This document shows positions 516-21,349 of a stretch of DNA of 21,427 nucleotides, piece by piece. Location of the stretch: the IMG/VR virus record IMGVR_UViG_3300024348_000285, positions 1 to 21,427 of that record. The stretch is one strand, 5' to 3'. The DNA is from a virus. Positions within the stretch are counted from its first letter, which is position 1. Each line of letters opens with the position of its first letter. The translations under genes were made by a program, and so were the position numbers. Below the pieces are notes generated by a model. The model searched no databases. It was given only the letters and a program-made list of their open reading frames with translations, and had not been told where the DNA came from.

Positions 516-1415
516 ATGGAACACAAACTACTCACCAAAGACGTAATCCTTTTCAAAAATACATTGAAGGATCCAGCTGCGACCCAGGATTTCATTATAC
601 GCTCTAAAACCAATAATGACCAGTGGTTTGGAAATTGGGAAGACTGGCGTCCATGGGGTCAATACTCAAAAGCATATCCATATCAAGATTCTTCATATGA
701 GGTGTGTGAAAATGAGGGCGGGGAATACCTGAGAGAGTTTTTAGACATATTCTGGAATGTAATGAAGATATATAAAGAAAATTATTTAAATAAAAATTAT
801 TTTGATTTGATAGGCGAAGATTCAGATATTCCAACAACTATGGAAGAAGCTAGAAAGCATCCAACATACTGCACTGCAGATGTAGTAATTTTAGAATCAG
901 AAAATACAGATAAATCAAAGCCATTGTCTATGGAATATCATCAAGACAGAAGGCCCTGGTTTGGTGGGACTCCCCATATATTCAATTTTAATATTTATAC
1001 TAATGACAATTACGAAGGCGGAGATATTTTAATTATTAATACAGAGGATGCAGAAAAATCAACATATATAGATGCTGATGGCAAAGAAAGAGAATGTTTG
1101 ATGATTGATCCTCCAGTTAGATACAAGATGGAAGCTGGAGATGGTCTGCTCTTTAGAACAGATGTATTTCATGCAGTTTTGCCAGTTATAGGAAATAAAT
1201 TTTACATTCGTCAATTCTTAACAGCATCATTTAAACCAGAGTGGTATGCTAAAAAGAACTCTATGTCTGAAGAAGAGTTTGAAGAATTTTTAAAGCAAGA
1301 AGAAAAAGAAGGATTTGCTAAATACGGTTGGCAATGCAGAATTTATAACTCAAAAGAAGAAATTGGTAATGGTGGAGACAATAATCAAATAGTTTGTGTG
1401 GTAAAAAATGTTTGA
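516..1415 (+). CDS. 2-oxoglutarate/Fe(II)-dependent oxygenase, copy 1
   Basis: A 299-aa protein with the metal and cosubstrate residues of the 2OG-Fe(II) dioxygenase fold. The HxD motif is H142-D144 (YHQDR), the distal His is H219 (VFHAV) and the 2OG-binding Arg is R232 (YIRQF). The strand before the distal His reads EAGDGLLF, as in prolyl-4-hydroxylase-like enzymes. These enzymes couple decarboxylation of 2-oxoglutarate to hydroxylation of a substrate, which cannot be read from sequence here. The start has an AAGGA ribosome site 7 nt upstream. It overlaps the next gene by 8 nt, and that gene is a paralogue with the same length and motif spacing at the HxD. Prolyl hydroxylation of phage tail proteins is an inference. 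Confidence 0.85.
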   Translation: MEHKLLTKDVILFKNTLKDPAATQDFIIRSKTNNDQWFGNWEDWRPWGQYSKAYPYQDSSYEVCENEGGEYLREFLDIFWNVMKIYKENYLNKNYFDLIGEDSDIPTTMEEARKHPTYCTADVVILESENTDKSKPLSMEYHQDRRPWFGGTPHIFNFNIYTNDNYEGGDILIINTEDAEKSTYIDADGKERECLMIDPPVRYKMEAGDGLLFRTDVFHAVLPVIGNKFYIRQFLTASFKPEWYAKKNSMSEEEFEEFLKQEEKEGFAKYGWQCRIYNSKEEIGNGGDNNQIVCVVKNV

Positions 1416-2304
1416 TGCTTTTGAATTGACTAAGGGAGTTCTTGTATTTAAGAATGTATTAAAAGATCCTAAAAAAACTTACGATGTAATAAAAAAATCT
1501 CAAACCGAAAAGCACGAACTGTTCACAGACTGGATGGATTGGGGTATATCTGGATTTAAGTCGACATTAGATCCTTATGACACTAGAGATCTAGATAACG
1601 AGCCTGGGGAAATCATTAAAGAGCTTTCAAGCATATACACACAATGTATTAACTACTATAAAGATAATTATCTTGATATGGACTATCTAAAGTCTTTAGA
1701 TGTAGCACCAAACTACAATATACCAGCAACACATGAAGAAGCAACTCAGGCTGGTGGATGGGGATCTGCAGATATACTTCTTGTAGACTATGCAGACAGT
1801 TTTGGTGATGATGGATTTATAAACGGATACCATATTGATAGAACTCCATTTTGGGGATCATCTCCACATGCATTTACATTAAACGTATACCCATATGATG
1901 ACTTTGAAGGTGGCGGATTGGCATTCATAAATATGGAAACGGCAGAACGAAAGATTACAGACAATGGCGTAGAGTATTATGAGATAGATAAGCCAGTAGA
2001 ATATTTTCCTGAAGCTGGAGATGCTATGTTTTTCTCTTCATTGCATTATCATGGCGTATATGGAACTAAGAACGGTGAAAAGGTATTTATTAGAATGTAT
2101 GTAGAGTCGCCTATGCCTAATGCATATAAGAAGGAAGTAGAATTTATGACTCAAGATGAAATTAATCAAAAGCGTGATATATCTAGAAAAGAATGTTTTG
2201 CAACACATACTCATCAGGCTAATATTTATACCTCAGTAGAAGAGATTGCAAATTTAAAGGCTTTAAATAAAAAATTCATAATTAGAAATAAAGCAGTTGA
2301 CTAG
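1408..2304 (+). CDS. 2-oxoglutarate/Fe(II)-dependent oxygenase, copy 2
   Basis: A 298-aa paralogue of the preceding gene. Both start with LTK-(D/G)-V-(I/L)-(L/V)-FKN and share the DW motif near residue 42. The catalytic residues are H142-D144 (YHIDR), H215 (HYHGV) and R229 (FIRMY), with a GG pair at 168-169 before the second strand. Its start lies inside the end of copy 1 (8-nt overlap), so the two are translated from one mRNA, probably coupled, since the upstream ribosome site is weak. The substrate is unknown. The two proteins are clearly diverged rather than a recent duplication, so they may act on different targets. Confidence 0.85.
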   Translation: MFDAFELTKGVLVFKNVLKDPKKTYDVIKKSQTEKHELFTDWMDWGISGFKSTLDPYDTRDLDNEPGEIIKELSSIYTQCINYYKDNYLDMDYLKSLDVAPNYNIPATHEEATQAGGWGSADILLVDYADSFGDDGFINGYHIDRTPFWGSSPHAFTLNVYPYDDFEGGGLAFINMETAERKITDNGVEYYEIDKPVEYFPEAGDAMFFSSLHYHGVYGTKNGEKVFIRMYVESPMPNAYKKEVEFMTQDEINQKRDISRKECFATHTHQANIYTSVEEIANLKALNKKFIIRNKAVD

Positions 2305-2309
2305 AATTA

Positions 2310-2318
2310 TGGTATACT
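2310..2318 (+). promoter_or_regulatory. Leaderless extended -10 promoter (TGG-TATACT)
   Basis: The -10 hexamer at 2313-2318 is followed by exactly 6 nt and then ATG at 2325, so transcription should start at the A of the start codon. It begins just after the stop of oxygenase copy 2. A TTGACT lies only 10 nt upstream, too close to be its -35. Confidence 0.6.
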
Positions 2319-2324
2319 AATATC

Positions 2325-2435
2325 ATGAAATTCTGCACATACTGTGAAAAACTATCATATACATCTAAGCTAACGCTAGATGGCAAGATGATATATTATT
2401 GTTCAGATCATGCTATGAATATTGCAGTTGACTAG
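2325..2435 (+). CDS. Small Cys-rich (zinc-ribbon-like) protein, 36 aa
   Basis: It encodes 36 residues with a CxxC near the N-terminus (FCTYC, C4 and C7) and a C-x2-H near the C-terminus (YYCSDH), a plausible four-ligand zinc site of the kind phages often carry in tiny proteins. It has no ribosome site. Instead an extended -10 box ends 7 nt before the ATG, implying leaderless translation. Its final codons and stop (GCAGTTGACTAG) exactly repeat the end of the preceding oxygenase gene. The function is unknown. Confidence 0.6.
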   Translation: MKFCTYCEKLSYTSKLTLDGKMIYYCSDHAMNIAVD

Positions 2436-2442
2436 GATATAT

Positions 2443-2586
2443 ATGAAGAAATTATCAGCATTAGTAAGTACCATTGCGATAGCAATCCTTTCAGGAGTTG
2501 CATTGTCTAAATTTTTAAATTGGGCGGGACAAGTAGAAATCTTTGATTTTGACCTAGATGAAGATATAGACAGTGAAGAATTCTAA
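2443..2586 (+). CDS. Small single-span membrane protein, 47 aa
   Basis: It encodes 47 residues: a lysine-led N-terminus (MKKLSALV), a hydrophobic segment at about residues 5-25, then an acidic tail (DFDLDEDIDSEEF). A ribosome site (TAGGA) overlaps the stop of the preceding gene. It could be a membrane peptide or an uncleaved signal-anchor protein. The acidic tail would face one side of the membrane. The last 14 nt overlap a possible second membrane peptide. I do not recognise a family. Confidence 0.6.
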   Translation: MKKLSALVSTIAIAILSGVALSKFLNWAGQVEIFDFDLDEDIDSEEF

Positions 2587-2656
2587 ACTCTATAGGTCAA
2601 TACTCTGGCTATCCTGGGTCTATATAGCTATACTGCTAATATGGACAATATGGTAA
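2573..2656 (+). CDS. Possible 27-aa membrane peptide with GTG start
   Basis: A GTG at 2573, inside the end of the previous gene, opens a 27-codon frame with a basic N-terminus (KNSKLYR) followed by a strongly hydrophobic, Trp-rich segment that ends at TAA 2654-2656. The composition is typical of a small transmembrane peptide, and the overlap suggests coupled translation. It also overlaps the start of the 92-aa gene at 2641. It has no clear ribosome site and could be chance. Confidence 0.35.
   Translation: MKNSKLYRSILWLSWVYIAILLIWTIW
2629..2634 (+). promoter_or_regulatory. -10 element for a leaderless transcript (TATACT-N6-ATG)
   Basis: TATACT is followed by 6 nt and the ATG at 2641, the same geometry as at 2313-2325. 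No TGN extension and no convincing -35 are visible. The 92-aa gene has no ribosome site, which supports leaderless translation. Confidence 0.45.
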
Positions 2657-2919
2657 ATTCGGACAAAGCAGACCAATTAGCGAAATACTTGCTAGATCGT
2701 AGATATGAAGAGTGTAATTATTTTCAAGCTGATAAGTTCATGGCAAGGTGTTCGCTAGAATGGGTCATAAAGGGCCTCAAGAGTCGATTAGAGACTTGTT
2801 TGAATGCAGAGTCAGGGGTATGTGACATATGGTACTTAGAAAGCCATACAGAGTGTTTATTACTAATGAATCTAATATACGAATATAGTGGAGATCCCCT
2901 GTATGATGCTAAATTCTAA
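2641..2919 (+). CDS. Unknown 92-aa protein
   Basis: A soluble, mostly helical-looking protein of 92 residues with five scattered cysteines. The start is the ATG placed 6 nt after TATACT; a second ATG lies 9 nt further in. The upstream frame is open for 15 more codons and hydrophobic but lacks a usable start. It ends near the convergent oxygenase gene; the 54-nt gap between them (2920-2973) shows short GCACTT-type repeats but no clear terminator hairpin. No family recognised. Confidence 0.65.
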   Translation: MDNMVNSDKADQLAKYLLDRRYEECNYFQADKFMARCSLEWVIKGLKSRLETCLNAESGVCDIWYLESHTECLLLMNLIYEYSGDPLYDAKF

Positions 2920-2973
2920 AATGGTTCTTCTACCGCCGCCGCACTTCAATTTTTTCACTTTTGCACTTTCGCA

Positions 2974-3813
2974 CTAAATGTCGGAATTGCCCTCTTCTTG
3001 TTTTTTCTTATTAATAATCTTATGAGTGTTATCACAATACGGTAAATCAGCCGACTGCCCGCAGATACATTTCTTTTTACAGAAAGTAGTTTCAGGATAT
3101 ACAGTTTGCACCCAGCTAATAATTTCCTTTTCATCTGTCATGTGAGGATGCTTGTCTGGATTAAATAGTTCATAAGTTCCAGGGGCATGCTCAAGCTCCA
3201 TGCAGAAGTTAGAATATGCATATCGCGTTCCAGATGTTATTTTTCTAACACCGTGTTCCCATGGATGTGTGGCTCCGTGTATTGCCAGGTCCCCAGGTCG
3301 AACATCTACTTCTAGACAATCAAATGCGTCCCCAGGTCTATCTTTTACAGATCCATCTTTTTCAAGATTAGGATAAAATATTTGTCCATCAGAATAGTCT
3401 CCAAAATACGTAACTATGCCGTGACTTAGCCTACAACAAGTTGACCATCTGTCTAGCTGAGTTAAATTGTGCTCCATATTCATTCCTGGGCTGTCAGCAT
3501 GTACAAACATACCCTCATCTCCTGGACGCATAACGTTTACAAAAAGTTGTGGATGTATATAATGCTCTGGATATAAAGCCATGGATATTCTATCCCAAAT
3601 CGGTTTTAGTTCAAGCATTAATGGGCCAGTTTTATTTTTATACCAGTCGATTGCTTGGTCTTCAAACTTAAAGGCATCTTGGTTATCAGCAAATCTAGAT
3701 TCATATTCTTTCATGATAGACATGATTTGATTATTTTCTTCTTCTGTTACAAAATTACGCCAGACCCATACTTGCTCCGCCACTTGCTCAAAATTCTTAT
3801 TGTCAGTAAACAT
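2974..3813 (-). CDS. 2OG/Fe(II) oxygenase fused to a C-terminal CDGSH iron-sulphur motif
   Basis: A 279-aa protein. The oxygenase part has H105-D107 (FVHADS), a distal His in HPWEHGV (H187 most likely) and R197 (GTRYA), with RPGDLAI before it, as in prolyl-hydroxylase-like enzymes. Residues 249-264 match the CDGSH consensus C-X-C-X2-S/T-X3-P-X-C-D-x-S/T-H: C249, C251, S254, P258, C260, D261, T263, H264, with Asn in place of the usual Gly. CDGSH domains bind a redox-active 2Fe-2S cluster through three Cys and one His. The cluster could act in electron transfer or redox sensing for the oxygenase; this is inference. The start overlaps the stop of the 51-aa gene (TAATG), so the two are cotranslated. 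Confidence 0.85.
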   Translation of the reverse strand: MFTDNKNFEQVAEQVWVWRNFVTEEENNQIMSIMKEYESRFADNQDAFKFEDQAIDWYKNKTGPLMLELKPIWDRISMALYPEHYIHPQLFVNVMRPGDEGMFVHADSPGMNMEHNLTQLDRWSTCCRLSHGIVTYFGDYSDGQIFYPNLEKDGSVKDRPGDAFDCLEVDVRPGDLAIHGATHPWEHGVRKITSGTRYAYSNFCMELEHAPGTYELFNPDKHPHMTDEKEIISWVQTVYPETTFCKKKCICGQSADLPYCDNTHKIINKKKQEEGNSDI

Positions 3814-3968
3814 TACTTCTTCCTAACTATACGTTTAAAAAATCCTTTTATTTTATTAAGATTTTTATCTAGCTTTTGATCGAATTGGCCACTCGGAGTA
3901 TCAGCATAACCAGGTGATGTAAAGTAAGGGCTATGCATTGCTTGTTTAAAATGATCTCTAGGGGACAT
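3813..3968 (-). CDS. Small basic protein, 51 aa
   Basis: The start chosen is ATG at 3968 (MSPRDHFKQ), not the upstream in-frame ATG at 4058, because the latter would place a terminator hairpin inside the gene, and because an extended -10 box ends 9 nt before 3968. The protein ends in a basic stretch (KIKGFFKRIVRKK). It is upstream of and overlaps the oxygenase-CDGSH gene. Function unknown. Confidence 0.6.
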   Translation of the reverse strand: MSPRDHFKQAMHSPYFTSPGYADTPSGQFDQKLDKNLNKIKGFFKRIVRKK

Positions 3969-3977
3969 GATAATATA

Positions 3978-3986
3978 ATTATACCA
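3978..3986 (-). promoter_or_regulatory. Extended -10 promoter (TGG-TATAAT), leftward
   Basis: On the minus strand TGG-TATAAT is followed 9 nt later by ATG 3968, giving a leader of about 0-3 nt. It sits directly downstream of the terminator at 3995-4034, so it marks the start of a new transcription unit for the 51-aa gene and the oxygenase-CDGSH gene. Confidence 0.6.
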
Positions 3987-3994
3987 CTTAAATA

Positions 3995-4034
3995 ATAAAG
4001 CCCCATTCAGAGGCGGATCCGAATGAGGCTTTAT
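3995..4034 (-). terminator. Terminator hairpin (leftward)
   Basis: A 14-bp stem pairs 3995-4008 with 4021-4034 around a 12-nt loop. On the minus-strand RNA every position pairs, one as G.U. On the plus strand the same position is a C-A mismatch, so the leftward direction is favoured. The tail is A/T-rich rather than a pure U run. It closes the lysozyme operon. A further AT-rich 8-bp inverted repeat lies at 4057-4080. Confidence 0.7.
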
Positions 4035-4092
4035 ATACTGGGAGCAAAACTCGACCAATACTTTAAAAGTATAAAGTATTATCTAAATAATG

Positions 4093-4281
4093 TCAAGGAA
4101 CTAATACGCCTTTTTCTACAAGAAGGTCGTACATGTTGCCCATTTGCCACTGCAAGAATGGCTGGTTCTTAATAATTTGCTGCTCAACGTCTGCAATATC
4201 TGCTCCGCTTGAAACTCCAGCAAATCTTGTATCATTGTTTAGTTTTTCTAGCATTAGTAGTACTACTTTTTCTTTTTCCAT
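4093..4281 (-). CDS. Unknown 62-aa protein
   Basis: The start is MEKEKVV at 4281, 1 nt after the stop of the upstream gene and behind a GAGGAAG ribosome site; the longer in-frame start at 4341 would overlap most of the upstream gene. It has a helical N-terminus with a D-A-D pattern and ends in MYDLLVEKGVLVP. MYDLL also occurs in its upstream neighbour, suggesting related or interacting small phage proteins. No family recognised. Confidence 0.65.
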   Translation of the reverse strand: MEKEKVVLLMLEKLNNDTRFAGVSSGADIADVEQQIIKNQPFLQWQMGNMYDLLVEKGVLVP

Positions 4282-4282
4282 T

Positions 4283-4495
4283 TTATTCTTCCTCACCTGG
4301 TGTAAATGAAGGCGCTGGCCCCAATAGGTAACCCGCCTCATGATATTCTATCATTTTTTGAGTATCTTCACTACCTACAATTTTATTTGAAATTAAGGTA
4401 AGAAGGTCGTACATTCTATGAAGCATAATATAATTCACCATAGGCAAATTATCTTCAAGATTACTTGAAACTTCTTTATTCTGGTCTTCCTGCAT
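4283..4495 (-). CDS. Unknown 70-aa protein
   Basis: An acidic N-terminus, a central helical segment (HRMYDLLTLISNKI) and a Pro/Gly-rich end (GPAPSFTPGEEE). It overlaps the end of the 35-aa gene upstream (4476-4495) and abuts the 62-aa gene downstream, so the group is a tightly packed leftward operon. Small proteins of this shape are common in tailed phages and have no known role. Confidence 0.65.
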   Translation of the reverse strand: MQEDQNKEVSSNLEDNLPMVNYIMLHRMYDLLTLISNKIVGSEDTQKMIEYHEAGYLLGPAPSFTPGEEE

Positions 4496-4583
4496 CTAGC
4501 CAAAAAACCTCTCTACCCATAGCGTCGGTAACCTGCATTGGTGCCGACTCTTTATTGCACTCACAGTATTCTTTATCGCACAT
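4476..4583 (-). CDS. Small Cys-containing protein, 35 aa
   Basis: It begins MCDKEYCECNKES and so has three Cys in the first nine residues, then reads to a stop at 4476-4478. Both ends overlap neighbours (11 nt with the upstream gene, 20 nt with the downstream one), and this chain of overlaps is the main support. Without it there would be an unexplained gap in a packed operon. Function unknown; a metal-binding peptide is possible. Confidence 0.55.
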   Translation of the reverse strand: MCDKEYCECNKESAPMQVTDAMGREVFWLDAGRPE

Positions 4584-4791
4584 TATTCTGTGCCTCAACA
4601 AGCTTTACTATATTCTGATACGTTGAAGATCCCATATTGTTTTTATACTCACATTGTAGGCAGTATAGAAATATATTGTCTTCTAAATCTTGATTACAAA
4701 AAAGAATGGACTGGTCTACTGGGCATAAAAGCTTTTCAACCAATCCATCTTCTGACATGGAGATGTAAGTTGATACATATTGTATCCTCAT
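4573..4791 (-). CDS. Zinc-ribbon-like protein, 72 aa
   Basis: It has four well-spaced cysteines: LLCPVDQ, LFCNQ and YCLQC. The arrangement C-x8-C-x10-C-x2-C resembles small phage zinc-ribbon proteins with an NIFLYCLxCEY signature. The start ATG at 4791 has a clear AAAGGAG ribosome site. It follows the lysozyme gene by 10 nt in the same operon. The molecular role is unknown. Confidence 0.7.
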   Translation of the reverse strand: MRIQYVSTYISMSEDGLVEKLLCPVDQSILFCNQDLEDNIFLYCLQCEYKNNMGSSTYQNIVKLVEAQNNVR

Positions 4792-4801
4792 CCCATCTCC
4801 T

Positions 4802-5344: not shown

Positions 5345-5377
5345 TGGCATTTCCTCCTATAGAGATAACGAACTATA

Positions 5378-5407: not shown

Positions 5408-5465
5408 CTTAGTTAACTAAAACAATGTATCATTATGTGAGACGTTCAGAATATTTTTTGGGCAC

Positions 5466-5544: not shown

Positions 5545-7479
5545 ATGTTGCAAACTATTGAAAATCCTTATGAAAACTTTATTGCTTTATCTAGATATGC
5601 AAAGTGGGTAGAGTCGGAAGGTCGAAGAGAAACCTGGGGAGAAACAGTAGATAGATATTTTAATTTTATGACTAATCATCTAAAGGTAAATCACAATTAT
5701 ATTCCAAATGAAAAGCTAGTTGCGGAATTAAAAGAGTTTGTTTTTGAAAGAAATGTTATGCCGTCTATGAGATCTGTAATGACTTCAGGTGCTGCATTAG
5801 AAAGAGATAATGTTGCAGGATATAACTGTGCTTTTCTTCCAGTTGATTCTCCCCGTTCTTTTGATGAAACAATGTATGTTCTAATGTGCGGAACTGGCGT
5901 TGGGTTTTCAGTAGAATACAAGTACATCAACAAACTTCCGCCAGTCCCAGAAAAACTTGAAAAGTCAGATACAGTTATTGTTGTTGAAGATTCAAAACAA
6001 GGTTGGGCAAAAGCATATCGTGAACTGTTGGCTTTACTTTGGACAGGACACATTCCAGCTATTGATGTTTCAAAAGTTAGACCTTCAGGGGCACGTTTAA
6101 AGACAATGGGAGGCAGATCTTCTGGGCCACAACCATTAATAAATCTTTTTGATTTTACAATTGCTAAATTTAAAAATGCTACAGGAAGAAATCTTAAGCC
6201 AATTGAATGTCACGACATAATGTGCAAGATTGGCGAAGTTGTAGTTGTTGGCGGAGTACGTAGGTCAGCAATGATTTCGCTTTCTAATATTAATGATATT
6301 GAGATGGCTCAAGCAAAGTCAGGCAATTGGTGGGAGCTAAGCCCACAACGTGCATTATCAAATAACTCTGTTGCATACTCACGCAAGCCAGAGATGGAGC
6401 AATTTATTGCAGAATGGAAATCTCTTTATGACTCAAAATCAGGAGAGCGAGGTATATACAATGTGGCCGCAGCTCAAGCCCAAGCAGCCAAGTTTGGAAG
6501 AAGAGATCCAGATATACACTACGGAACTAACCCTTGTTCAGAAATTATTTTACGTCCTTATCAGTTTTGCAATCTTTCAGAAGTCGTATTACGTGAAAAC
6601 GATACAAAGAAAGATATTCAGCGCAAAGTCGAGCTGGCTACAATTCTTGGAACGTGGCAATCAACTTTAACCGACTTTAAATACTTACGTAAAATTTGGA
6701 AAGACAATACAGAAGAAGAGCGCTTACTCGGAGTTTCTTTAACTGGGCAGTTTGGTCACAAATTTATGTCTGGAAAAGAAGATATTGTTATGCTTGAATC
6801 ATTTCTTATGACTTTGCGTGAAAAAGCAAGAGAAGTAAACAGAGAAGAGTCTGGTAAAATTGGTATTCCAGAATCTGCAGCAATTACTTGTGTCAAGCCT
6901 TCTGGAACCGTTTCACAACTAGTTGGCGTATCTTCAGGCATGCACCCATGGCATTCTCCATATTATATTCGTACAGTTCGTGGCTCTAAAGGAGATCCAA
7001 TTTCTACATTCTTAAAAGAAGTGGGCATTCCAGTAGAAGACGATGTTATGAAGCCAAATGATACTTACGTATTTTCATTTCCAGTAAAGGCACCAGATGG
7101 TGCAATTGTAAGAAATGATTTAACTGCCATTCAGCACTTAGACATATGGCTAGTTTATCAACGTGCTTGGTGTGAACACAAGCCATCAATTACCGTTTCA
7201 GTAAAAGAAGATGAATGGATGGAAGTTGGCGCTTGGGTGTATAAGAATTTTGACGAGGTCTCTGGAATTTCATTCCTACCGCATTCAGATCATACATACA
7301 AGCAAGCTCCTTACCAAGAGGTTTCAAAGGAAGATTACGATGCGCTGGTTGCAAAGATGCCTAAGAATATTCGTTGGGAAGACCTTTCATTCTATGAGAC
7401 AGAAGACGGAACATCACCCTCTGCCACCCTTGCCTGCAGTTCCGATGGAAATTGCGAACTTGTGGATATTTCAGCATAG
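5545..7479 (+). CDS. nrdJ: Ribonucleoside-triphosphate reductase, adenosylcobalamin-dependent (class II, monomeric type)
   Basis: A 644-aa enzyme reducing ribonucleotides to deoxyribonucleotides for phage DNA synthesis. NPCSEI supplies the thiyl-radical Cys (C331) and E333. C342 follows 11 residues after C331, the same spacing as C408/C419 in the Lactobacillus leichmannii enzyme. C95 (NCAF) would be the second redox Cys. Other family marks are KPSGTVSQL and RAWCEHKPS. The C-terminal CSSDGNC (C631, C637) is the expected redox-shuttle pair. It is shorter than the roughly 740-aa bacterial enzyme. The protein has no Tyr-radical partner nearby, consistent with B12 use. It is flanked by the divergent lysozyme operon and the holin-like gene. 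Confidence 0.93.
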   Translation: MLQTIENPYENFIALSRYAKWVESEGRRETWGETVDRYFNFMTNHLKVNHNYIPNEKLVAELKEFVFERNVMPSMRSVMTSGAALERDNVAGYNCAFLPVDSPRSFDETMYVLMCGTGVGFSVEYKYINKLPPVPEKLEKSDTVIVVEDSKQGWAKAYRELLALLWTGHIPAIDVSKVRPSGARLKTMGGRSSGPQPLINLFDFTIAKFKNATGRNLKPIECHDIMCKIGEVVVVGGVRRSAMISLSNINDIEMAQAKSGNWWELSPQRALSNNSVAYSRKPEMEQFIAEWKSLYDSKSGERGIYNVAAAQAQAAKFGRRDPDIHYGTNPCSEIILRPYQFCNLSEVVLRENDTKKDIQRKVELATILGTWQSTLTDFKYLRKIWKDNTEEERLLGVSLTGQFGHKFMSGKEDIVMLESFLMTLREKAREVNREESGKIGIPESAAITCVKPSGTVSQLVGVSSGMHPWHSPYYIRTVRGSKGDPISTFLKEVGIPVEDDVMKPNDTYVFSFPVKAPDGAIVRNDLTAIQHLDIWLVYQRAWCEHKPSITVSVKEDEWMEVGAWVYKNFDEVSGISFLPHSDHTYKQAPYQEVSKEDYDALVAKMPKNIRWEDLSFYETEDGTSPSATLACSSDGNCELVDISA

Positions 7480-7860: not shown

Positions 7861-8208
7861 ATGGCAGGACAAAAGAATTTCGAAGTAGATCAAAATGCTA
7901 CATTTAGCTTTGTACTAGAATACAAAGACGATAATGGAAATGCAATTGATTTAAATGGCGCATCTGCAAAGATGCAAATCCGTGACATAAAAGGCGGAGC
8001 TAAACTAGCCGTCACATTAACATCACCTTCAGGTGGAATTGTAATTGATGGCCTTAATGGGAAATTGACCATTACACTTACACCAACTCAAACAAACAAA
8101 CTCTTTTATCCTAAATCAGTATATGACATTATGCTTGTTGATTCTAATGCAAATAAAATAAAACTCCTTGAGGGCTTCATGACGCTCAATAGATCGGTAA
8201 CAGTATAA
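7861..8208 (+). CDS. Baseplate/tail adaptor-like protein
   Basis: A 115-aa beta-rich protein of a type common among tailed phages: an N-terminal strand (NFEVDQNATFSF), then GNAIDLNGASAKMQIRD, a hydrophobic strand pair, and LLEGFMTLNRSVT at the end. Such proteins have been compared with N-terminal domains of baseplate upper proteins; this comparison is from memory of the family pattern. The next gene starts on the stop codon (TAATG), indicating coupled translation. The likely role is attachment of fibres to the baseplate. Confidence 0.55.
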   Translation: MAGQKNFEVDQNATFSFVLEYKDDNGNAIDLNGASAKMQIRDIKGGAKLAVTLTSPSGGIVIDGLNGKLTITLTPTQTNKLFYPKSVYDIMLVDSNANKIKLLEGFMTLNRSVTV

Positions 8209-8648
8209 TGGCCGAAAAAGTAATTGTAACTGAAATTGTTAATGATGTAATAGTTTCCTCTCCAGGACCACAAGGGCCTAGAGGTAGAACTATCCTTAAC
8301 GGCACAGGTGTCCCTTCTAACAACTTGGGACTTGAAGGCGACTTCTATTACGACAAATCTCTTTCTAAATTTTACGGTCCAAAATTATCAGATGCAACAT
8401 GGGCTAATGCTGCTGTAATAACACTGTCTTCAAACACATTGTCTTTCAGTTGGGAATTAGCACAATTAACAGGCCCAGTTCAGGGTATATATTCATTGCC
8501 AATACTTCATAACTTAGGGTATAACCCAAATGTTACAGTAAAATCAAGTGCAGGGGATATATTAGAAGTGGGTATAGATTATAACGGTTTAAATCAAATA
8601 ACGCTGACAATGGCACAGCCATTTTCAGGGACAGCGCACCTGTCATAA
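8208..8648 (+). CDS. Short tail-fibre-like protein with a collagen-like GPQGPRG segment
   Basis: A 146-aa protein. Residues near 19-27 read GPQGPRGRT, two to three Gly-X-Y triplets as found in many phage fibres, followed by GDFYYDKSLSKFYGPK, a common adhesin segment. The C-terminal half is predicted beta (HNLGYNPNVTVKSSAG). It starts on the stop of the previous gene. The triplets could be targets for prolyl hydroxylation if the oxygenases in this window act on structural proteins. Confidence 0.6.
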   Translation: MAEKVIVTEIVNDVIVSSPGPQGPRGRTILNGTGVPSNNLGLEGDFYYDKSLSKFYGPKLSDATWANAAVITLSSNTLSFSWELAQLTGPVQGIYSLPILHNLGYNPNVTVKSSAGDILEVGIDYNGLNQITLTMAQPFSGTAHLS

Positions 8649-11882: not shown

Positions 11883-14444
11883 ATGCCGTTAAACATTTTT
11901 GATGGTTCCGCATGGAAACCTTTCAAAAAAATATCAATCCACGATGGTTCCACCTGGAAAGATTCAAAGGCATCTTATGTTTATGACGGCTCACAATGGA
12001 AAAAATTTGGGGCAGCAGTACCAAAAAATACAGTAGCTCCAGTATTTACATGGCAAAATAATAATAGACAAGCTGGACAATATATCTCTATAGGAGTTGG
12101 CACATGGGAAAACTCGCCAACCTCGTTTACATATACATGGCAAAAAGCACCATTTGCACTTAGCGGAGCGCATTTAGAATCTTCTTGGGTAACTTTTGGA
12201 GACAATCAAAACTCTTCTTATATTGATAAGCAGATGATCGGATATGTTTTAAGATGTAAGGTAGTTGCTATAAATGAATTTGGAGAATCTGACCCTGTTT
12301 ATGTTAATGGAAATAATTTAGTTTCTGTTTATACAAATGGCATAGATTCAATTTCAACGGATGATCAAAATCAAGTTGTTAGGCCACAAAATGTATTTTA
12401 TATAGACCACACACTTACACAGAATGGCCGCATCAATTTAAGATGGGTAAAACCAATAGGTGCAGATCAGTATAGAGTTTATTGGGTGGGACCAGGAGTA
12501 CAAAACCAAAAAGATGTTACTACTGTAGTTGATGGAACTGCATATGATACAACATCCATAGACACTGGCTCAGCAGATGGACAATTAACAGTTTATATTA
12601 CATCACAAAATGTAAATAATCCATATACACAATCTTTATACAACACTCCACTTGAAAGCCCAACATTTAAAGAGCATGTTATTCCAGATATGAAGCCATT
12701 TAAGCCTTCTGTTGCAATCGGAGTTTCTGATATACTTCAATCTACTGCCACCCTATCCTGGACTAATTCTAATTTAACTCAAACAGCCTGGGAAATTTAT
12801 TGGGTAAATCCAGACGGATCCTCTATGACAGCAGGTTCTGGTTCAGGATCAACAAACACAATACCATTAACATTCCTAACAGCTGGAGAAACATACAGAT
12901 ATAAGGTTGTAGTTACAGGAACAGCAGATAGATTTACTGAAACTTCATGGACCTCTAATACAGTACAATTTACAACAAATGCAGGAGTTTCCTACTACAC
13001 TGGAACCTCTAGATGTAATCCATTTAGTGGAGTTTATGCAGCAAACCCATCAGTCACAGGCCCACTTGTTTCTTCAAACAATACAATACCAACAGATACA
13101 TATATAGTTGATGGATCATTCAGTACAAAAACAGTTTACAGAACCACATATTCAGAGGCTCTTGTTGCAGCAGGAAATTCTGCTTGCGATCCCACAATAA
13201 CACCAACTCCAACAACTGCCCCACCAACCCAGTACACCTACTACACTGGAACTTCAGTCTGTAATCCTTTTAGTGGAACTTATGGCCAAAGCCCAAGTGC
13301 ATCTGGCCCACTAACTAATAGTACAGGTATACCAGAAGACACATATACAACTAGCGGACAACAAAGCACAAAAACGGTTTATAGAACAACTTACGCAGCC
13401 GCCCTTGCAGATGCAGGAAATTCTGCTTGCGATCCAACCCCAACTCCTACCCCAACCCCAACACCTACCCCAACCCCAACACCTACCCCAACCCCAACAC
13501 CTACCCCTTTACTAACATGCCCTGGAACCTATACTAATCCAACATCCTATACATGTACTGAGTTAGGATACGAATACCTCGGAAACTCAACTACATATAG
13601 CGTACCTAACGGTTGGCAATGTTGCGGTGGAGCACTTGCAACTCCTACACCTACAGCAACTCCTGCACCAGAAAAAGCAACTTGTCCAGGAACCTATACT
13701 AATCCAACATCCTATACATGCTCTGAGTTGGGATATGAATACCTTGGAAACTCAACTACATATAACGTACCTAACGGCTGGCAATGTTGCGGTGGAGCAC
13801 TAACGTTTGCACCTCCAAGTTTTTTTGCTCCTCCAGGGTTCTTCTCACCTCCAGGATTCTTTGCTCCACCAGGGTTCTTCTCTCCACCAGGATTCTTTGC
13901 TCCACCAGGATTCTTTGCACCCCCAAGCTTTATTTACATTCCTTGGTTTGGACCTCCTTGCGTAGAAGAGAACACTCTTGTAGACACTATGGACGGTCAA
14001 GTGCCAGCCAAGTTCTTACAGGTCGGAGATAAGATCAAATCTATTGTGATTAATCAAATTGACCCTTTAACACCTGATTCATACCAGTTCTCTACTTGGG
14101 CATCTTCTGATTTTTCAGTAGGCGAATTTGTTGAAACAACAATTACAGATATTGTTGAAACTCAAGAATCAGATATTTTGTATTTTAATGAAAATGTAGA
14201 TACAAGAATGACTTATACTCAACCAGTCTTTGTTAAAACTTTATCAGGAGAATATAAGATCAAAGAAGCTTATTATGTTGAAGTTGGCGAATCAATAATT
14301 CATATTGATTCCCAAGGGCAAATAGGAGAAACACTAGTAGATAAAATAGAGTTCCTAGTTGACCAATCTGTCAACGTTTATCAATTGTCATGCGAACCAA
14401 ACGACTGGTTCTTTGTAAATGGCATGCTTGTGCACAATAAGTAG
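11883..14444 (+). CDS. Large multidomain tail/adhesin protein with PPGFF repeats and C-terminal Hint domain
   Basis: An 853-aa protein. Residues 1-45 hold three DGSxWK repeats. About 46-160 is an Ig-like region. Two FN3-like domains span about 170-265 and 272-367. Next come two copies of a YYTGTSxCNPFSG module (371-438, 453-519), a Pro-Thr linker (519-543), two 41-residue Cys-rich modules (545-585, 600-640) and seven FF(S/A)PPG units (642-682). The Hint domain runs from C693 to N852, with block A CVEENTLVDTMDG and the end VHN followed only by Lys. The block B position expected to be His is Gln (Q780). Hint domains can self-cleave or ligate; whether this one does is unknown. Likely displayed at the tail tip. 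Confidence 0.8.
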   Translation: MPLNIFDGSAWKPFKKISIHDGSTWKDSKASYVYDGSQWKKFGAAVPKNTVAPVFTWQNNNRQAGQYISIGVGTWENSPTSFTYTWQKAPFALSGAHLESSWVTFGDNQNSSYIDKQMIGYVLRCKVVAINEFGESDPVYVNGNNLVSVYTNGIDSISTDDQNQVVRPQNVFYIDHTLTQNGRINLRWVKPIGADQYRVYWVGPGVQNQKDVTTVVDGTAYDTTSIDTGSADGQLTVYITSQNVNNPYTQSLYNTPLESPTFKEHVIPDMKPFKPSVAIGVSDILQSTATLSWTNSNLTQTAWEIYWVNPDGSSMTAGSGSGSTNTIPLTFLTAGETYRYKVVVTGTADRFTETSWTSNTVQFTTNAGVSYYTGTSRCNPFSGVYAANPSVTGPLVSSNNTIPTDTYIVDGSFSTKTVYRTTYSEALVAAGNSACDPTITPTPTTAPPTQYTYYTGTSVCNPFSGTYGQSPSASGPLTNSTGIPEDTYTTSGQQSTKTVYRTTYAAALADAGNSACDPTPTPTPTPTPTPTPTPTPTPTPTPLLTCPGTYTNPTSYTCTELGYEYLGNSTTYSVPNGWQCCGGALATPTPTATPAPEKATCPGTYTNPTSYTCSELGYEYLGNSTTYNVPNGWQCCGGALTFAPPSFFAPPGFFSPPGFFAPPGFFSPPGFFAPPGFFAPPSFIYIPWFGPPCVEENTLVDTMDGQVPAKFLQVGDKIKSIVINQIDPLTPDSYQFSTWASSDFSVGEFVETTITDIVETQESDILYFNENVDTRMTYTQPVFVKTLSGEYKIKEAYYVEVGESIIHIDSQGQIGETLVDKIEFLVDQSVNVYQLSCEPNDWFFVNGMLVHNK
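12993..13439 (+). repeat. Duplicated YYTGTS-C-NPFSG module (2 copies)
   Basis: Copy 1 is 12993-13196 and copy 2 is 13239-13439. They share YYTGTSxCNPFSG, STKTVYRTTY and AGNSACDPT at matching positions. Each copy has two Cys, suggesting one disulphide. The copies are similar in DNA, so the duplication is fairly recent. Confidence 0.8.
13437..13508 (+). repeat. Pro-Thr low-complexity linker (18-nt tandem repeat)
   Basis: It encodes alternating Pro-Thr through repeats of an ACCCCAACCCCAACACCT-type unit. PT-rich linkers are commonly O-glycosylated in secreted proteins; that is background knowledge, not shown here. The tandem DNA repeat can change length by slippage. Confidence 0.85.
13515..13802 (+). 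repeat. Duplicated 41-residue Cys-rich module (2 copies)
   Basis: 13515-13637 and 13680-13802, a period of 165 nt. Each starts TCPGTYTNPTSYTC and ends NGWQCCGGAL with four Cys. DNA identity is high with mostly silent changes. The pattern suggests a small disulphide-bonded domain. Confidence 0.85.
13806..13928 (+). repeat. FF(S/A)PPG hexapeptide array, 7 units
   Basis: Seven tandem units (first one missing a Phe) directly before the Hint domain; the 18-nt DNA units differ mostly at silent sites. It is followed by IYIPWFGPP and then the Hint Cys. The matching array in the 19994 gene has 14 units. Confidence 0.9.
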
Positions 14445-14447
14445 AAA

Positions 14448-14462: not shown

Positions 14463-15647
14463 ATGTCAGTAAAGCCTTGGGATTTATTAAATCCTAATAG
14501 TCAATATGCAACACCAGAAGAAGCCGCAAACAGGTATTCTATTTGTAAGGCCTGCCCAGAATTTATAGGTCTTACAAAACAATGCAAGAAATGTGGCTGT
14601 TTTATGAAATTTAAAACTAAGTTACAGGCAGCCGAATGCCCAATTCATAAGTGGGAAGCGGCAGAGCCAGTACCATTAGAAAAAATGGAGGAACTAATGA
14701 TAGACAACGACGCAAAGATATTTATTAATATACCTTCATATAAGGATCCAGAGATATGGAAGACAGTTGACCACTTTATAGCAAATGCGGAATTTCCAGA
14801 AAGAGTATTCTTTGGAATAACCCTTCAAGACGATAATGTTGAATATAATAAGGCAGAGACTTTAAAGAGAAATAATGTTAGAACAGATTGTCTTATTCCA
14901 GGATCTATTATTGGATGCCAGCCTGCCAGAAAGAATTCAAATAAATTCTATGCTGGCCAAGAGTATTATTTAAACATGGACTCCCACATGAGAGCAATAC
15001 CTAACTGGGATTCAGAAATAATTAAAGAATACAACTATGCAAAGAATGATTTTTCTGAACTAGTATTTACAGCATATGTCCCGCCATATGATGTTGATGA
15101 AAATGGCAATGATCAAATTCCAGAAATTTTACAGAATCCTACATTTTACATGACTGAAAGTAACGTAGCTCATTTTAAGGCTACCCTTGTTCCACAATTT
15201 AGTCCACAATATTCTAACCCAGATTCTAATGTGCTAAGCCCTTACGTGTCTGGACATTTCTTTTTTACAGAAAAATCCGTAATAGAAAAAGTTCCTTTTG
15301 TGGATGAAATTGCATTTACAGAAGAAGAGCCAATGATGGCTTTAAGATTCTTTACGGCAGGCTATAATCTTGTTACACCAAAGAAAGCATTTGTGTACCA
15401 TAGATACGGAAGACCAGATAGAAAGCTTATATGGGACGATAGCCCTGAAACATTTTATCCAAAGCATAACGAGTCTAAGTCTTACTTCCAGCAGATAATT
15501 GTCGGACAAAAAATAGATGATGCAAGTGGACTATTCACCGAAAGAACATTAGAAGACTTTGAAAATTATTCAGGAATTCATTTTTCTACTGGTATAATAG
15601 ATGATAGGGTAATCAAAGGCCTTCCTTCTGGATATTACCCGTCTTAA
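14463..15647 (+). CDS. GT60-like (GlcNAc) glycosyltransferase with N-terminal DUF6171-like Cys cluster
   Basis: A 394-aa protein. Residues 28-64 hold a zinc-binding-type cluster (C28, C31, C41, C44, C46, C59; CKKCGCFMK and CPIHKW) of the DUF6171 type. From about 85 the protein matches the GlcNAc-transferase family that includes Skp1-hydroxyproline GlcNAc-transferase: IFINIPSYKDPEIW, the nucleotide-sugar/metal motif NMDSHMRAIPNWD (171-183), then FTEEEPMMALRFFTAGYNL and a final H-R-Y-GR. The fold would move GlcNAc from UDP-GlcNAc to a protein hydroxyl. It is expressed from its own leaderless promoter amid tail genes, so a tail protein is the likely acceptor. Acceptor and sugar are inferred. Confidence 0.8.
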   Translation: MSVKPWDLLNPNSQYATPEEAANRYSICKACPEFIGLTKQCKKCGCFMKFKTKLQAAECPIHKWEAAEPVPLEKMEELMIDNDAKIFINIPSYKDPEIWKTVDHFIANAEFPERVFFGITLQDDNVEYNKAETLKRNNVRTDCLIPGSIIGCQPARKNSNKFYAGQEYYLNMDSHMRAIPNWDSEIIKEYNYAKNDFSELVFTAYVPPYDVDENGNDQIPEILQNPTFYMTESNVAHFKATLVPQFSPQYSNPDSNVLSPYVSGHFFFTEKSVIEKVPFVDEIAFTEEEPMMALRFFTAGYNLVTPKKAFVYHRYGRPDRKLIWDDSPETFYPKHNESKSYFQQIIVGQKIDDASGLFTERTLEDFENYSGIHFSTGIIDDRVIKGLPSGYYPS

Positions 15648-17669: not shown

Positions 17670-17683
17670 TTAAATAAAGGTTT

Positions 17684-17708
17684 TGGGGGATTCCTTAAAA
17701 ATCCCCCA
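17684..17708 (+). terminator. Hairpin terminator after the coiled-coil fibre
   Basis: TGGGGGATT (17684-17692) pairs perfectly with AATCCCCCA (17700-17708), loop 7 nt. The following sequence is A-rich rather than T-rich on this strand, so it may act as a partial terminator or RNA-processing or stability element. Confidence 0.5.
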
Positions 17709-17740
17709 CAATAAAACAATTAGGGGATAAGTGAACTTAA

Positions 17741-18100
17741 ATGGCAACAGTAAATAAGAATTTTAGAGTAAAGAATGGATTAAATGTGGCTGGTACAGCT
17801 ACGTTTGATTCTAACATCGTATTAGGCACCGCCCCAATAGCATTCGACGAAACAACAGGAAGACTCAAAGTCCAAATCAATGGAACTTGGGTCTCTTTAG
17901 CACATACAACAGATGTAGTCGATACATCTGGAGCAATAAGCTTTATGGATATCGGATTGGCTATCGATTATGATGGTAATCCTGTTTATACAGTTCAAGC
18001 AAACGGGGTTGTAACAACAGCAACTAAATTCGCTGACGGCGGAACCCCAGGTTCAACATCGTTCGACCTATCATTTGACTCAAGTACAATTAACGCATAA
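17741..18100 (+). CDS. Short tail-fibre attachment-like protein
   Basis: A 119-aa protein. The start (VNKNFRVKNGLNVAGTATF) parallels the N-terminus of the 16287 fibre, followed by QINGTWVSLA and a Gly/Ser/Thr-rich end (ADGGTPGSTSFD). The end resembles that of the 9638 protein (DGGTPTT). A GGGG-type ribosome site is farther than usual (about 13 nt). It could be a capping or adaptor protein between baseplate and fibre. Confidence 0.6.
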   Translation: MATVNKNFRVKNGLNVAGTATFDSNIVLGTAPIAFDETTGRLKVQINGTWVSLAHTTDVVDTSGAISFMDIGLAIDYDGNPVYTVQANGVVTTATKFADGGTPGSTSFDLSFDSSTINA

Positions 18101-18115
18101 TTGTAATTGAATAAA

Positions 18116-18124
18116 TGGTATACT
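18116..18124 (+). promoter_or_regulatory. Extended -10 promoter (TGG-TATACT)
   Basis: The same motif as at 2310-2318. Expected start near 18131, giving a 26-nt leader with AGGGGTGG as ribosome site before ATG 18157. No -35 seen. Confidence 0.55.
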
Positions 18125-18156
18125 TTACAAATAATATAAAATAAGGGGTGGCATAA

Positions 18157-18570
18157 ATGTCAACAGTAAGAATTCAAGTAAGAAGAGGCGTCGCAGCAGA
18201 CTGGACCTCAGTAAACCCAATATTAGCCGCAGGTGAAATGGGTGTAGAAACAGATACAAATAAGTTTAAGTTTGGTAACGGAACTGGCGCATGGAGCACA
18301 CTTGCTTACGCAGCATCAGATTCAGCAGCAATCGGAGAAATTTCTCAGGATGCAATTAATACAGCCCTTACAATGGGCTCAGGACTTTCAAAGACATACA
18401 ACGACGGTGCTAACACAATTACAATTAGCGTTGACTCAGCAGTTGTTGCAACCAGATCATATGTTGATGCTGCAGTTGCAGGATTGTCAAGCTCAGTAGA
18501 TGCAGCATATGTTCCAGAAGCAGATAAGGAGTGGCATACGGTGTTGCAAGCCTTGACGCAAATGCAGTAG
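18157..18570 (+). pseudogene. N-terminal part of a frameshifted tail fibre (Mtd-like domain)
   Basis: It encodes 137 residues in this frame. Residues 1-50 are a paralogue of the 10101 fibre start (VRIQVRRGVAADWTSVNP, GVETDTNKFKFGNG). Homology continues to about residue 125 (VPEADKE), after which the frame reads an unrelated 12-residue tail and stops. In the -1 frame the next residues are VAYGVASLDANAVVP, colinear with AEKDLAFGYAGLDA of the 10101 protein. The simplest reading is one missing G near 18530. A programmed -1 shift or a sequencing error are alternatives; no canonical slippery heptamer is seen. Confidence 0.7.
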
Positions 18571-19967
18571 TTCCAACAATACAAATTTCAAATGCTTCAG
18601 TTAGAGAAAAGCTCTCAGGTGGAACAGGAATTAATTACAACACATCTACAGGAGAAATTGCAGTAGGTACTTCAATTGCTACACGCACATACGTTGACGC
18701 ATCTCTTCAGACACTTGTTAATGGAGCTCCAGCAGCACTTGATACAATTAATGAGCTTGCAGCAGCAATCGGAAACGATGCAAACTATACAACAACAATT
18801 ACTACAGCTCTTGGCACAAAGGCGCCAATTGCTTCTCCAACATTTACTGGAACTGTAACAATTCCAGCAGGTGCAGGAATTGCAGGATATGTACAAACAA
18901 CAGATTTAGCAGCATATTCAACAACAGCGCTAAATGATGCAGCATACCTTTCAATAACAAATGCAGCTAGCACATACCTAACACAAAACAATGCAACCAG
19001 CACATATCTTGCTCTTGCAAATGCAGATGAAAGAATTCAGGATACAGCAGCAGGCATGTTACAGGTTTCAGCAGGTAATGGACTTGGAAGAGTTTATGAC
19101 GATGCAGCTAACTCATTAACATTGAGCATTGATCAGACTGTAATTTCTACAGTTGCAGCAAGAGATGCAGCAATTGTAACCGCACTTGCAACAGCAGCTT
19201 CAGATGCTACAACTAAGGCAAATGGAGCTGTAACAACTGCAGCAGCAGATGCGACAACTAAGGCAGCAACTGCTAAGTCAGAAGCTATTGCAGCAGCAGC
19301 AACAGCTGCTGATACAAAGGTATCAGATCACAGCACAGATACAACAAATGTACACGGAATTTCAGATACATCACTTCTAGCACTTAAGTCAGAGGTTGCA
19401 GCAGTTACAAAGACTTCCCTAGGCCTAGGTAATGTTGATAATACAGCAGATGCATCAAAGCCAGTATCTTCAGCACAGGCTACAGCAATTGCAACTGCTA
19501 AGTCAGAAGCAATCGCAGATGCAACAGCACGGGTAAATGCAGTAATTGCATCAGCTCCAGCAGCATTGGATACACTTGATGAACTTGCAGCAGCACTTGG
19601 AGATGACGCTAACTATGCAGCAACAATAACAACTGCACTTGCAGGCAAGGTTCCATCAGCTACAACAATTTCACAGAAGACAGCAAGCTACACTCTTGCA
19701 TCAATCAACGAGAAAGACTCAATGATTGAAATGAACGCAGCAGGTGCAACAACAGTTACAGTCCCAACAGACGCAGCAGTTGCATTCCCAGTAGGAACAT
19801 CTTTGGATATCCTACGGGTTGGCGCAGGCGCAGTAGACGTAGCAGCAGCAGGTGGAGTTACAGTTAATGCAACTCCAGGACTAAAGCTTCGCTCACAGTG
19901 GTCATCAGCAACATTAATCAAGAGAGCAGCAAATACTTGGGTACTTGTTGGCGATCTATCAGCTTAA
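18531..19967 (+). CDS. Body and C-terminal part of the frameshifted tail fibre
   Basis: It is open from a GTG at 18531 (478 codons), but that GTG lies inside the AAGGAG sequence and has no spaced ribosome site, so it is probably the continuation of the 18157 gene. It has fibre modules: DTINELAAAIGNDANY, IASPTFTGTVTIP, LGLGNVDNTADASKPVSSAQ and LDTLDELAAALGDDANY. The C-terminal domain (YTLASINEKDSMIEMN to WVLVGDLSA) is a common phage fibre head. Joined with the upstream part, the full fibre would be about 600 aa. Confidence 0.75.
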   Translation: MAYGVASLDANAVVPTIQISNASVREKLSGGTGINYNTSTGEIAVGTSIATRTYVDASLQTLVNGAPAALDTINELAAAIGNDANYTTTITTALGTKAPIASPTFTGTVTIPAGAGIAGYVQTTDLAAYSTTALNDAAYLSITNAASTYLTQNNATSTYLALANADERIQDTAAGMLQVSAGNGLGRVYDDAANSLTLSIDQTVISTVAARDAAIVTALATAASDATTKANGAVTTAAADATTKAATAKSEAIAAAATAADTKVSDHSTDTTNVHGISDTSLLALKSEVAAVTKTSLGLGNVDNTADASKPVSSAQATAIATAKSEAIADATARVNAVIASAPAALDTLDELAAALGDDANYAATITTALAGKVPSATTISQKTASYTLASINEKDSMIEMNAAGATTVTVPTDAAVAFPVGTSLDILRVGAGAVDVAAAGGVTVNATPGLKLRSQWSSATLIKRAANTWVLVGDLSA

Positions 19968-19993
19968 TTAGATTAAAAAATAGGAGATAAAAA

Positions 19994-21349
19994 ATGGCAA
20001 ACAAGAAATACGGTATTAAGTCTTCAGCACAGGATAACTTCCTGGAGCCAAAGGCCGTTACTGGATTTACTGCCACTGGTGTTAACGGAGGGGCGTTCAA
20101 TAGCGGTTCAGCGAATTTAGCTTGGACGCTTCCATCCGATTCACCAGCAGCAACACTATATACAATAGTGTCAAGTCCAGCAACAACAACACAAACAACA
20201 TCTTCTACCTCACTTTCCTTTACAGGTCTTGCAGGTGGAACATCATATACATTCACAATAACTCCATCTAATGCAGTTGGTAATGGTCCTACAACCACAT
20301 CAAGCGCTACAACGCCTACAACAGTCCCTGCTCAGGTTGGTGCTCCATCAGCATCATCTTCATCAGCTGGAACAGACGTAGTTTCATGGTCAGCACCAGC
20401 AAATGGTGGATCAGCAATCACAGCGTATTACTGGGCATCTAGCGATGGAAAATCTGGCAGCACAGCGTCTACATCTGTAAGCGTTGGTCAAGAGCAAGGA
20501 ACTGCACAGACATACACTGTCTATGCAGCTAATGCTAACGGAAATGGTGCAACATCAGGCGCATCAAACAGCATTACAACTTTCTTCTCACCACCTTCAT
20601 TCTTCTCCCCACCAGGGTTCTTCAGCCCACCAGGGTTCTTTGCACCTCCAGGGTTCTTCAGCCCACCAGGGTTCTTTGCACCTCCAGGGTTCTTCAGCCC
20701 ACCAGGGTTCTTTGCACCTCCAGGGTTCTTTAGCCCACCAGGGTTCTTTGCACCTCCAGGGTTCTTTAGCCCACCAGGGTTCTTTAGCCCACCAGGGTTC
20801 TTTGCACCTCCAGGGTTCTTCAGCCCACCAAGCTTCTATTTTATCCCTTGGTTTGGACCTCCTTGCGTAGAAGAGAACACTCTTGTAGACACTATGGACG
20901 GTCAAGTGCCAGCCAAGTTCCTACAGGTAGGAGATAAGATCAAGTCAACAGTTATCAATCAAATTGATGCTACAACTCCAGATGCTTATCAATTCTCAAC
21001 ATGGAGCTCAGATTCTTTATCTATCGGAGAATTCGTAGAAACTACAATTACCGACATAATTGAAACTCAAGAATCAGATATCATGTACTTCAACGGAAAC
21101 ACTGATGTAAGAATGACATTTACTCAGCCAATATTCGTAAAGACAGTAGATGGTACATATAAGATTAAAGAGTCTTACTATGCTGAAGTTGGCGAAAGCC
21201 TAATTCTTGTGGATGCAAATGGGACAATAAATGAAGTTCCAATTACAGACATCAAGTATTCAACAGAAGCACCAACAAGCGTTTATCAACTTTCTTGTGA
21301 ACCATACGACTGGTTCTTTGTCAGCGGATTACTTATACACAATAAGTAA
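19994..21349 (+). CDS. Tail/adhesin protein with FN3 domains, 14 PPGFF repeats and C-terminal Hint domain
   Basis: A 451-aa protein. Two FN3-like domains cover about 20-108 and 114-196 (LAWTLPSDSPAATLY, YTFTITPSNAVGNGPTT; VSWSAPANGGSAITAY). The hexapeptide array FF(S/A)PPG has 14 units at 197-280. The Hint domain runs from C291 to N450, ends HN-Lys-stop, and aligns without gaps to the Hint of the 11883 gene. Block B again has Gln (Q378) instead of His (MTFTQP). The ribosome site TAGGAG is well placed. The FN3 region differs from the 11883 protein, so the repeat-Hint end is a mobile module attached to different stalks. Confidence 0.82.
   Translation: MANKKYGIKSSAQDNFLEPKAVTGFTATGVNGGAFNSGSANLAWTLPSDSPAATLYTIVSSPATTTQTTSSTSLSFTGLAGGTSYTFTITPSNAVGNGPTTTSSATTPTTVPAQVGAPSASSSSAGTDVVSWSAPANGGSAITAYYWASSDGKSGSTASTSVSVGQEQGTAQTYTVYAANANGNGATSGASNSITTFFSPPSFFSPPGFFSPPGFFAPPGFFSPPGFFAPPGFFSPPGFFAPPGFFSPPGFFAPPGFFSPPGFFSPPGFFAPPGFFSPPSFYFIPWFGPPCVEENTLVDTMDGQVPAKFLQVGDKIKSTVINQIDATTPDAYQFSTWSSDSLSIGEFVETTITDIIETQESDIMYFNGNTDVRMTFTQPIFVKTVDGTYKIKESYYAEVGESLILVDANGTINEVPITDIKYSTEAPTSVYQLSCEPYDWFFVSGLLIHNK
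20582..20833 (+). repeat. FF(S/A)PPG hexapeptide array, 14 units (18-nt tandem repeat)
   Basis: Fourteen perfect-length 18-nt units, many identical, mostly alternating Ser and Ala forms; first and last units end in Ser rather than Gly. The DNA is homogeneous enough for slippage or unequal exchange. Confidence 0.92.

Follow-up and report, generated by a model that had tools for sequence, protein, structure and literature searches.

Candidate modules for hydroxylation and O-glycosylation of tail repeat proteins in an uncultured aquatic phage

In Dictyostelium, prolyl 4-hydroxylases (P4H) of the 2-oxoglutarate (2OG) oxygenase type and a hydroxyproline-specific enzyme of the GT60 family, Gnt1, act one after the other on the protein Skp1 (PMC8724618), and GT60 is also recognised on threonine-modifying enzymes of Dictyostelium and T. 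cruzi that act on mucin domains (PMC8724618, PMC3769586). Among viruses, mimivirus L230 is a lysyl hydroxylase-glucosyltransferase for viral collagen (PMC4691112), and a chlorovirus P4H acts on proline-containing peptides (PMC7019647). Here we analyzed a 21,427-nt stretch of DNA from the tail operon of an uncultured aquatic phage (IMG/VR record IMGVR_UViG_3300024348_000285; hereafter, the window), which encodes two tail repeat proteins with Phe-Pro arrays, several 2OG/Fe(II) oxygenases and a GT60-like glycosyltransferase. A preliminary description of this DNA had joined these parts into a single pathway, in which the oxygenases hydroxylate the prolines of PPG triplets and the transferase then glycosylates the hydroxyproline, as on Skp1. 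All the named parts exist as open reading frames (ORFs), and their associations across related phages point to two separate modules for modification of the phage's own tail repeats, to which we assign a probability of roughly 0.55. Judging from sequence comparison, these modules resemble the mimivirus and chlorovirus systems; their architecture was not found in the literature searched.

The two tail repeat proteins, both encoded on the plus strand, carry arrays of a hexapeptide, FF[AS]PPG. Repeat protein 1 (853 amino acids; positions 11883-14444) contains a mucin-like (PT)n linker (13434-13508) and an array of 6 units (13821-13928), and repeat protein 2 (451 amino acids; 19994-21349) contains an fn3 domain (E 3e-8) and an array of 14 units (20582-20833). 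Across ~85,000 bacterial and archaeal genomes, the DNA pattern encoding PPGFF turned up in only 5 stretches, compared with at least 120 viral stretches, and the arrays are thus not chance occurrences. Nearly all PPGFF array proteins belong to three N-terminal families, and the Phe-Pro repeat is the feature common to array proteins with unrelated N-termini, with or without a C-terminal intein-like Hint domain. Glycine occurs at every sixth residue rather than every third, and there are PPFFP variants without glycine; the analogy with collagen was therefore rejected. Furthermore, PPG, described previously as the canonical hydroxylation triplet of collagen, is not invariant: arrays with PPS, PPA, PPL, PPT, PPN or PPFFP are accompanied by the same oxygenase cluster.

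This cluster of oxygenase genes, located directly downstream of the array gene, supports the first module. The PPGFF arrays were retrieved by DNA pattern alone, without reference to enzymes. Among the eight genes following each of 52 non-redundant array proteins, 128 of 245 (52%) encoded 2OG oxygenases, as opposed to 2 of 167 (1%) among the eight preceding genes (Fisher test, 2e-34; here and below, p-values overstate independence, because the contigs are related and the PPGFF proteins belong mainly to three N-terminal families). At least two 2OG genes were present in 26 of the 27 array loci with 3 kb or more of downstream sequence. Matches to the Pfam family PF13640 confirmed all eight called oxygenases of one such locus (L387), plus others. 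When 18 whole contigs were searched with PF13640, all 10 carrying PPGFF or PPFFP arrays had 6-12 matches, including a tandem cluster beside the array, whereas the 8 contigs without such arrays had 0-4 scattered matches and no cluster; such a split would arise by chance once in 43,758 if the contigs were independent. Similarly, the gene following the Mtd_N tail protein was itself followed by 2-5 oxygenases in 18 of 20 cases when it encoded a Phe-Pro array and in 0 of 7 cases when it did not. A Hint tail protein with a proline-free NFGHY array had no 2OG gene in the following 2.7 kb, and its 38.7-kb contig contained a single PF13640 match, located elsewhere. In a phmmer search, one cluster member matched solved P4Hs (3itq and 5hv0, E 1e-4), the PKHD hydroxylases and PiuC (7e-7), so that, together with the PF13640 matches, the array-proximal enzymes can be assigned on sequence to the P4H-type 2OG family. 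The similarity to the chlorovirus P4H is weak, and, unlike that small single enzyme, the phage enzymes come from runs of 6-12 genes in tandem, downstream of a repeat gene. We found no report of the link between cluster and array in the open-access literature searched; tblastn searches with the repeat protein and the oxygenases against named phages gave no matches, the array query being uninformative because its repeats were masked. Proteins of the DUF6065 and phrog_7084 families recur among the cluster oxygenases (for example, L387:9295-10705 and similar loci).

In the window itself, the first array-proximal oxygenase gene, the fourth oxygenase gene overall, begins with a TTG codon within the last 55 bases (21373-21427, plus strand) and is cut by the window end. 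Another contig, L083, shares the final 740 bases of the window with 100% identity and extends past them, with eight 2OG ORFs in ~8 kb, the first of which begins at window position 21373. On the strength of this overlap, the oxygenases of this phage probably number eleven or more: three ahead of the lysozyme gene and eight behind repeat protein 2.

The three upstream enzymes, ox1 (299 amino acids; 516-1415, plus strand), its paralogue ox2 (33% identical; 1408-2304, plus strand) and ox3 (2974-3813, minus strand), were correctly described as 2OG/Fe(II) oxygenases: the HxD...H...R motifs, comprising the facial triad and the 2OG-binding arginine, are intact in all three. Residues H142, D144, H219 and R232 are invariant across 20 sequences (ox1, ox2 and 18 relatives), and H105, D107, H187 and R197 of ox3 are invariant across 14. 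None of the three matched the Pfam 2OG models, including the P4H-type PF13640; support from the fold comes from ox1, whose AlphaFold2 model (pLDDT 92) matches 2OG oxygenases at E 4e-7 with a low TM of ~0.4. These matches span P4H, prolyl 3-hydroxylases, PHD2 and small-molecule enzymes alike and do not separate a peptide from a small-molecule substrate. However, the proposed tie between oxygenases and arrays, which stands for the tandem P4H-type cluster, fails for ox1-ox3. Although ox1 and PPGFF occur together in 17 contigs of the ox1 lineage itself, an ox1 orthologue is missing from 24 of the 25 other PPGFF contigs retrieved by array pattern, and ox1 and ox3 were rejected as array enzymes. Six further ox1-positive contigs without PPGFF stop before the tail genes, as judged from coordinates. 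Thus, ox1, ox2 and ox3 are a separate group bound to one phage lineage. As a separate observation, the C-terminal tail of ox3 is Cys-rich and CDGSH-like (a weak zf-CDGSH match at E 4e-5, below the cut-off), an unusual combination, in which a 2OG domain is joined to what may be an Fe-S site; the Cys tail is missing in distant relatives.

The second module centers on the transferase (394 amino acids; 14463-15647, plus strand), the gene of which starts 19 bases behind that of repeat protein 1, in agreement with the preliminary description. Its assignment to GT60 is secure (PF11397, E 6e-42, 144.7 bits against a 21-bit cut-off), and a DxH motif (D90-x-H92, DSH in the window), W99-D100 and the acidic pair E205-E206 are invariant in 36 sequences; a His accompanies these motifs in the window enzyme. 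The model (pLDDT 95) is closest in fold to polypeptide GalNAc-transferase 2 (ppGalNAc-T2), a mucin-type Ser/Thr enzyme. In family, DxH motif, a GT-A fold nearest to GT27 and a Thr-rich neighbor, the phage protein thus resembles the mucin-type pp-alpha-GlcNAc transferases (Dictyostelium Gnt2, T. cruzi OGNT2; PMC3769586) and the GT27 ppGalNAc-Ts; it differs from them in being fused to an N-terminal zinc ribbon of ~65 residues (14463-14660; phrog_13558, DUF6171-like) and is known here from sequence and model. In many viral contigs the zinc ribbon stands alone as a gene of its own, and in many phages it is near-constant after repeat protein 1, with or without GT60 (loci L037-L082). In some relatives, radical SAM/SPASM-type genes, possibly encoding a peptide-modifying enzyme, lie between the zinc ribbon and GT60 (L041:7139-8152, L026:6622-7554).

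Across relatives, GT60 follows threonine-rich rather than Phe-Pro repeats. A Thr- and Pro-rich array lies within 3 kb of 36 of 72 non-redundant GT60 genes; the expectation, taken from the other genes at these loci, is 15.5. Moreover, among zinc-ribbon loci, an upstream Thr fraction of at least 0.4 was found in 25 of 35 with GT60 and in 5 of 27 without it (p 4e-5). A Thr array precedes 34 of the 60 GT60 genes with upstream sequence, and 21 of these 34 arrays contain no more than 10% proline. On sequence, a Thr-rich, acceptor-like domain thus appears to adjoin the transferase, as in mucin-type systems; in the window this candidate acceptor is the Pro-Thr linker, correctly noted in the preliminary description. 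At loci without GT60, its slot is occupied by epimerases, GT61 or a weakly O-FucT-like gene, and such swapping is what a polymorphic glycosylation island would be expected to show.

Several observations weigh against separate modification of the two kinds of repeat. The PPGFF array of repeat protein 1 has no adjacent oxygenase cluster, and neither does an array protein in another genome (G020, locus L419), within 6 kb. For a single repeat, eight or more oxygenases is a large number. Most PPGFF loci carry one large family of homologous tail proteins, and the loci counted therefore do not represent independent events; the IMG/VR contigs are mutually related and often fragmentary, and the statistics ignore kinship, as the terminase marker PF03237, intended for a tree, matched only 2 of 40 contigs. 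In the cultured cyanophage S-MbCM7, 2OG genes come after a short tail fiber gene lacking such arrays, a point in favor of a wider role in tail modification or of another substrate. This arrangement would suit an auxiliary or counter-host island within the tail operon, with small molecules, host proteins or nucleic acids as substrates, as would the frequency of 2OG genes in aquatic phages, where they are usually called auxiliary metabolic genes (PMC10436341), and the filing of such genes among the morons in PHROG. Nevertheless, the sharp position of the cluster and its dependence on the array (the 10/10 versus 0/8 contigs and 18/20 versus 0/7 tail genes given above), which holds for Hint and non-Hint array proteins alike, make such an island rather doubtful in our view.

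The arrays could also be hydrophobic spacers only, with the oxygenases acting on other tail residues, such as Asn, Asp or Lys in fn3 domains. Indeed, the residue after PP varies among arrays (G, S, A, L, T, N or R), and eight different enzymes suggest several sites. However, the Phe-Pro repeat is precisely what the otherwise unrelated array proteins share, and we consider the spacer explanation unlikely.

For the transferase, the points against Thr linkers as acceptors are that the Thr association weakens inside the lysozyme-linked synteny group (10/14 versus 5/13), that the Thr-array thresholds were chosen after the data had been seen, and that PTPTP arrays are also accompanied by other sugar enzymes in place of GT60. 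In addition, GT60-like genes of XacN1-type jumbo phages adjoin carbamoyltransferase and RNaseH genes, with no tail gene nearby, as would fit a transferase whose acceptor is phage DNA or a host glycan instead of a protein of the tail. The two such loci (L205 and L206, from phages XacN1 and RAS14) may point to a DNA-modifying branch. Yet the genes concerned are only ~23% identical, GT60 otherwise sits in the tail operon with Thr arrays upstream, and its nearest folds are polypeptide GalNAc-transferases; DNA or a host glycan is therefore quite improbable as the acceptor.

The single pathway modeled on Skp1 has in its favor that all its parts lie within one window, that Dictyostelium Gnt1, a related enzyme, is hydroxyproline-specific, and that array, zinc ribbon, P4H-type 2OG gene and GT60 are consecutive in some relatives. 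Across relatives, the oxygenases co-occur with PPGFF, and GT60 with low-complexity tail repeats, but GT60 does not co-occur with PPGFF: of 79 PPGFF arrays, 1 had GT60 nearby; of 25 long PPGFF contigs, 2 carried it; and it was absent from PPGFF contigs of 105-113 kb. Near the zinc ribbon, 2OG genes were no commoner with GT60 (12 of 35 loci) than without it (16 of 27). Since GT60 tracks Thr arrays, many of them without Pro (21 nearly so) and without a nearby oxygenase (24 of the 34 Thr-array loci have none within ~4 kb), the pathway is unsupported; the adjacent P4H is, moreover, missing in the window lineage. Hydroxyproline formation followed by GlcNAc addition on PPG was rejected on these co-occurrence counts, and we regard a Skp1-like pathway as very improbable. 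The likeness to Skp1 modification is thus limited to the kinds of enzyme found together in a single organism, namely 2OG prolyl hydroxylases and GT60, whereas the phage GT60 does not track Pro arrays, its acceptor looks like Thr linkers, and no Skp1 homologue is involved.

The preliminary description missed the Hint domain that ends both repeat proteins (13959-14441 and 20864-21346, both plus strand). The array passes into GPPC-VEENTLV..., the Hint domain runs from Cys1 (in PCVEENT...), and the protein ends in ...HNK. The profile matches a bacterial intein-like domain (PDB 2LWY) at E 9e-9, and Cys1 and the C-terminal HN are both present. The phage domains differ from the bacterial intein-like ones in their phage-tail location, in ending one residue (Lys) past HN, and in the block-B TxxH histidine, which is absent from the window clade, where Gln replaces it (TFTQ/TYTQ); any activity of the domain is putative for this reason. 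The His is kept in distant relatives, some of which have lost HN. The domain may cut itself off, releasing or attaching the array end. The arrays preceding Hint are swapped among relatives (PPGFF, PPFFP, TPAVTP, TPVAP, TTTAA, TEAPT, PTPTP and NFGHY).

The remaining window encodes a lysozyme, a B12-dependent (class II) ribonucleotide reductase and a run of fiber and Mtd_N-type tail proteins. The reductase gene (5545-7479) lies in the tail region and adjoins the opposite-strand lysozyme gene. A short fiber-like protein (8208-8648, plus strand; weak PHROG matches) does contain the GPQGPRG previously noted, as one seven-residue motif and not an array. The Mtd_N tail gene is frameshifted in this record (18157-18570 and 18531-19967); because the near-identical contig L089 has an intact 603-aa ORF, the split may be an assembly or sequencing slip.

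Taken together, these data suggest array hydroxylation and Thr O-glycosylation as the best reading. In the first module, the likeliest role of the tandem P4H-type oxygenases behind repeat protein 2 is to hydroxylate the Phe-Pro arrays, at prolines or at other residues; they would act in trans within the infected cell, either ahead of virion assembly or in its course, and a peptide FFAPPGFFSPPG is a candidate substrate. In the second, the zinc ribbon-GT60 enzyme behind repeat protein 1 would most likely add a GlcNAc-type sugar to threonines of the PT-rich linker; in relatives, GT60 is exchanged for other sugar enzymes. As the last step, the Hint domain would trim or link the array end. Like L230, these would be virus-encoded enzymes that hydroxylate and glycosylate the virus's own repeat proteins, although L230 is one fused enzyme targeting Lys in collagen repeats, whereas the phage has separate genes and hexapeptide Phe-Pro arrays. 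More tentatively, and with some doubt, widespread uncultured phages might practice a protein maturation resembling that of the extracellular matrix, with Phe-Pro tail-fiber arrays densely hydroxylated by dedicated banks of 6-12 oxygenases, mucin-type O-sugars on neighboring Thr linkers, and self-processing Hint ends.

Separate hydroxylation and glycosylation of the tail repeats yields direct predictions at the peptide level. In aquatic phages, genes for 2OG oxygenases are common and unexplained, and are mostly filed as auxiliary metabolic genes. If their position behind arrays reflects their substrate, many phage 2OG oxygenases would be virion-maturation enzymes, and ordinary tailed phages would join eukaryotes and giant viruses, the main known settings of mucin-type and hydroxylation chemistry.

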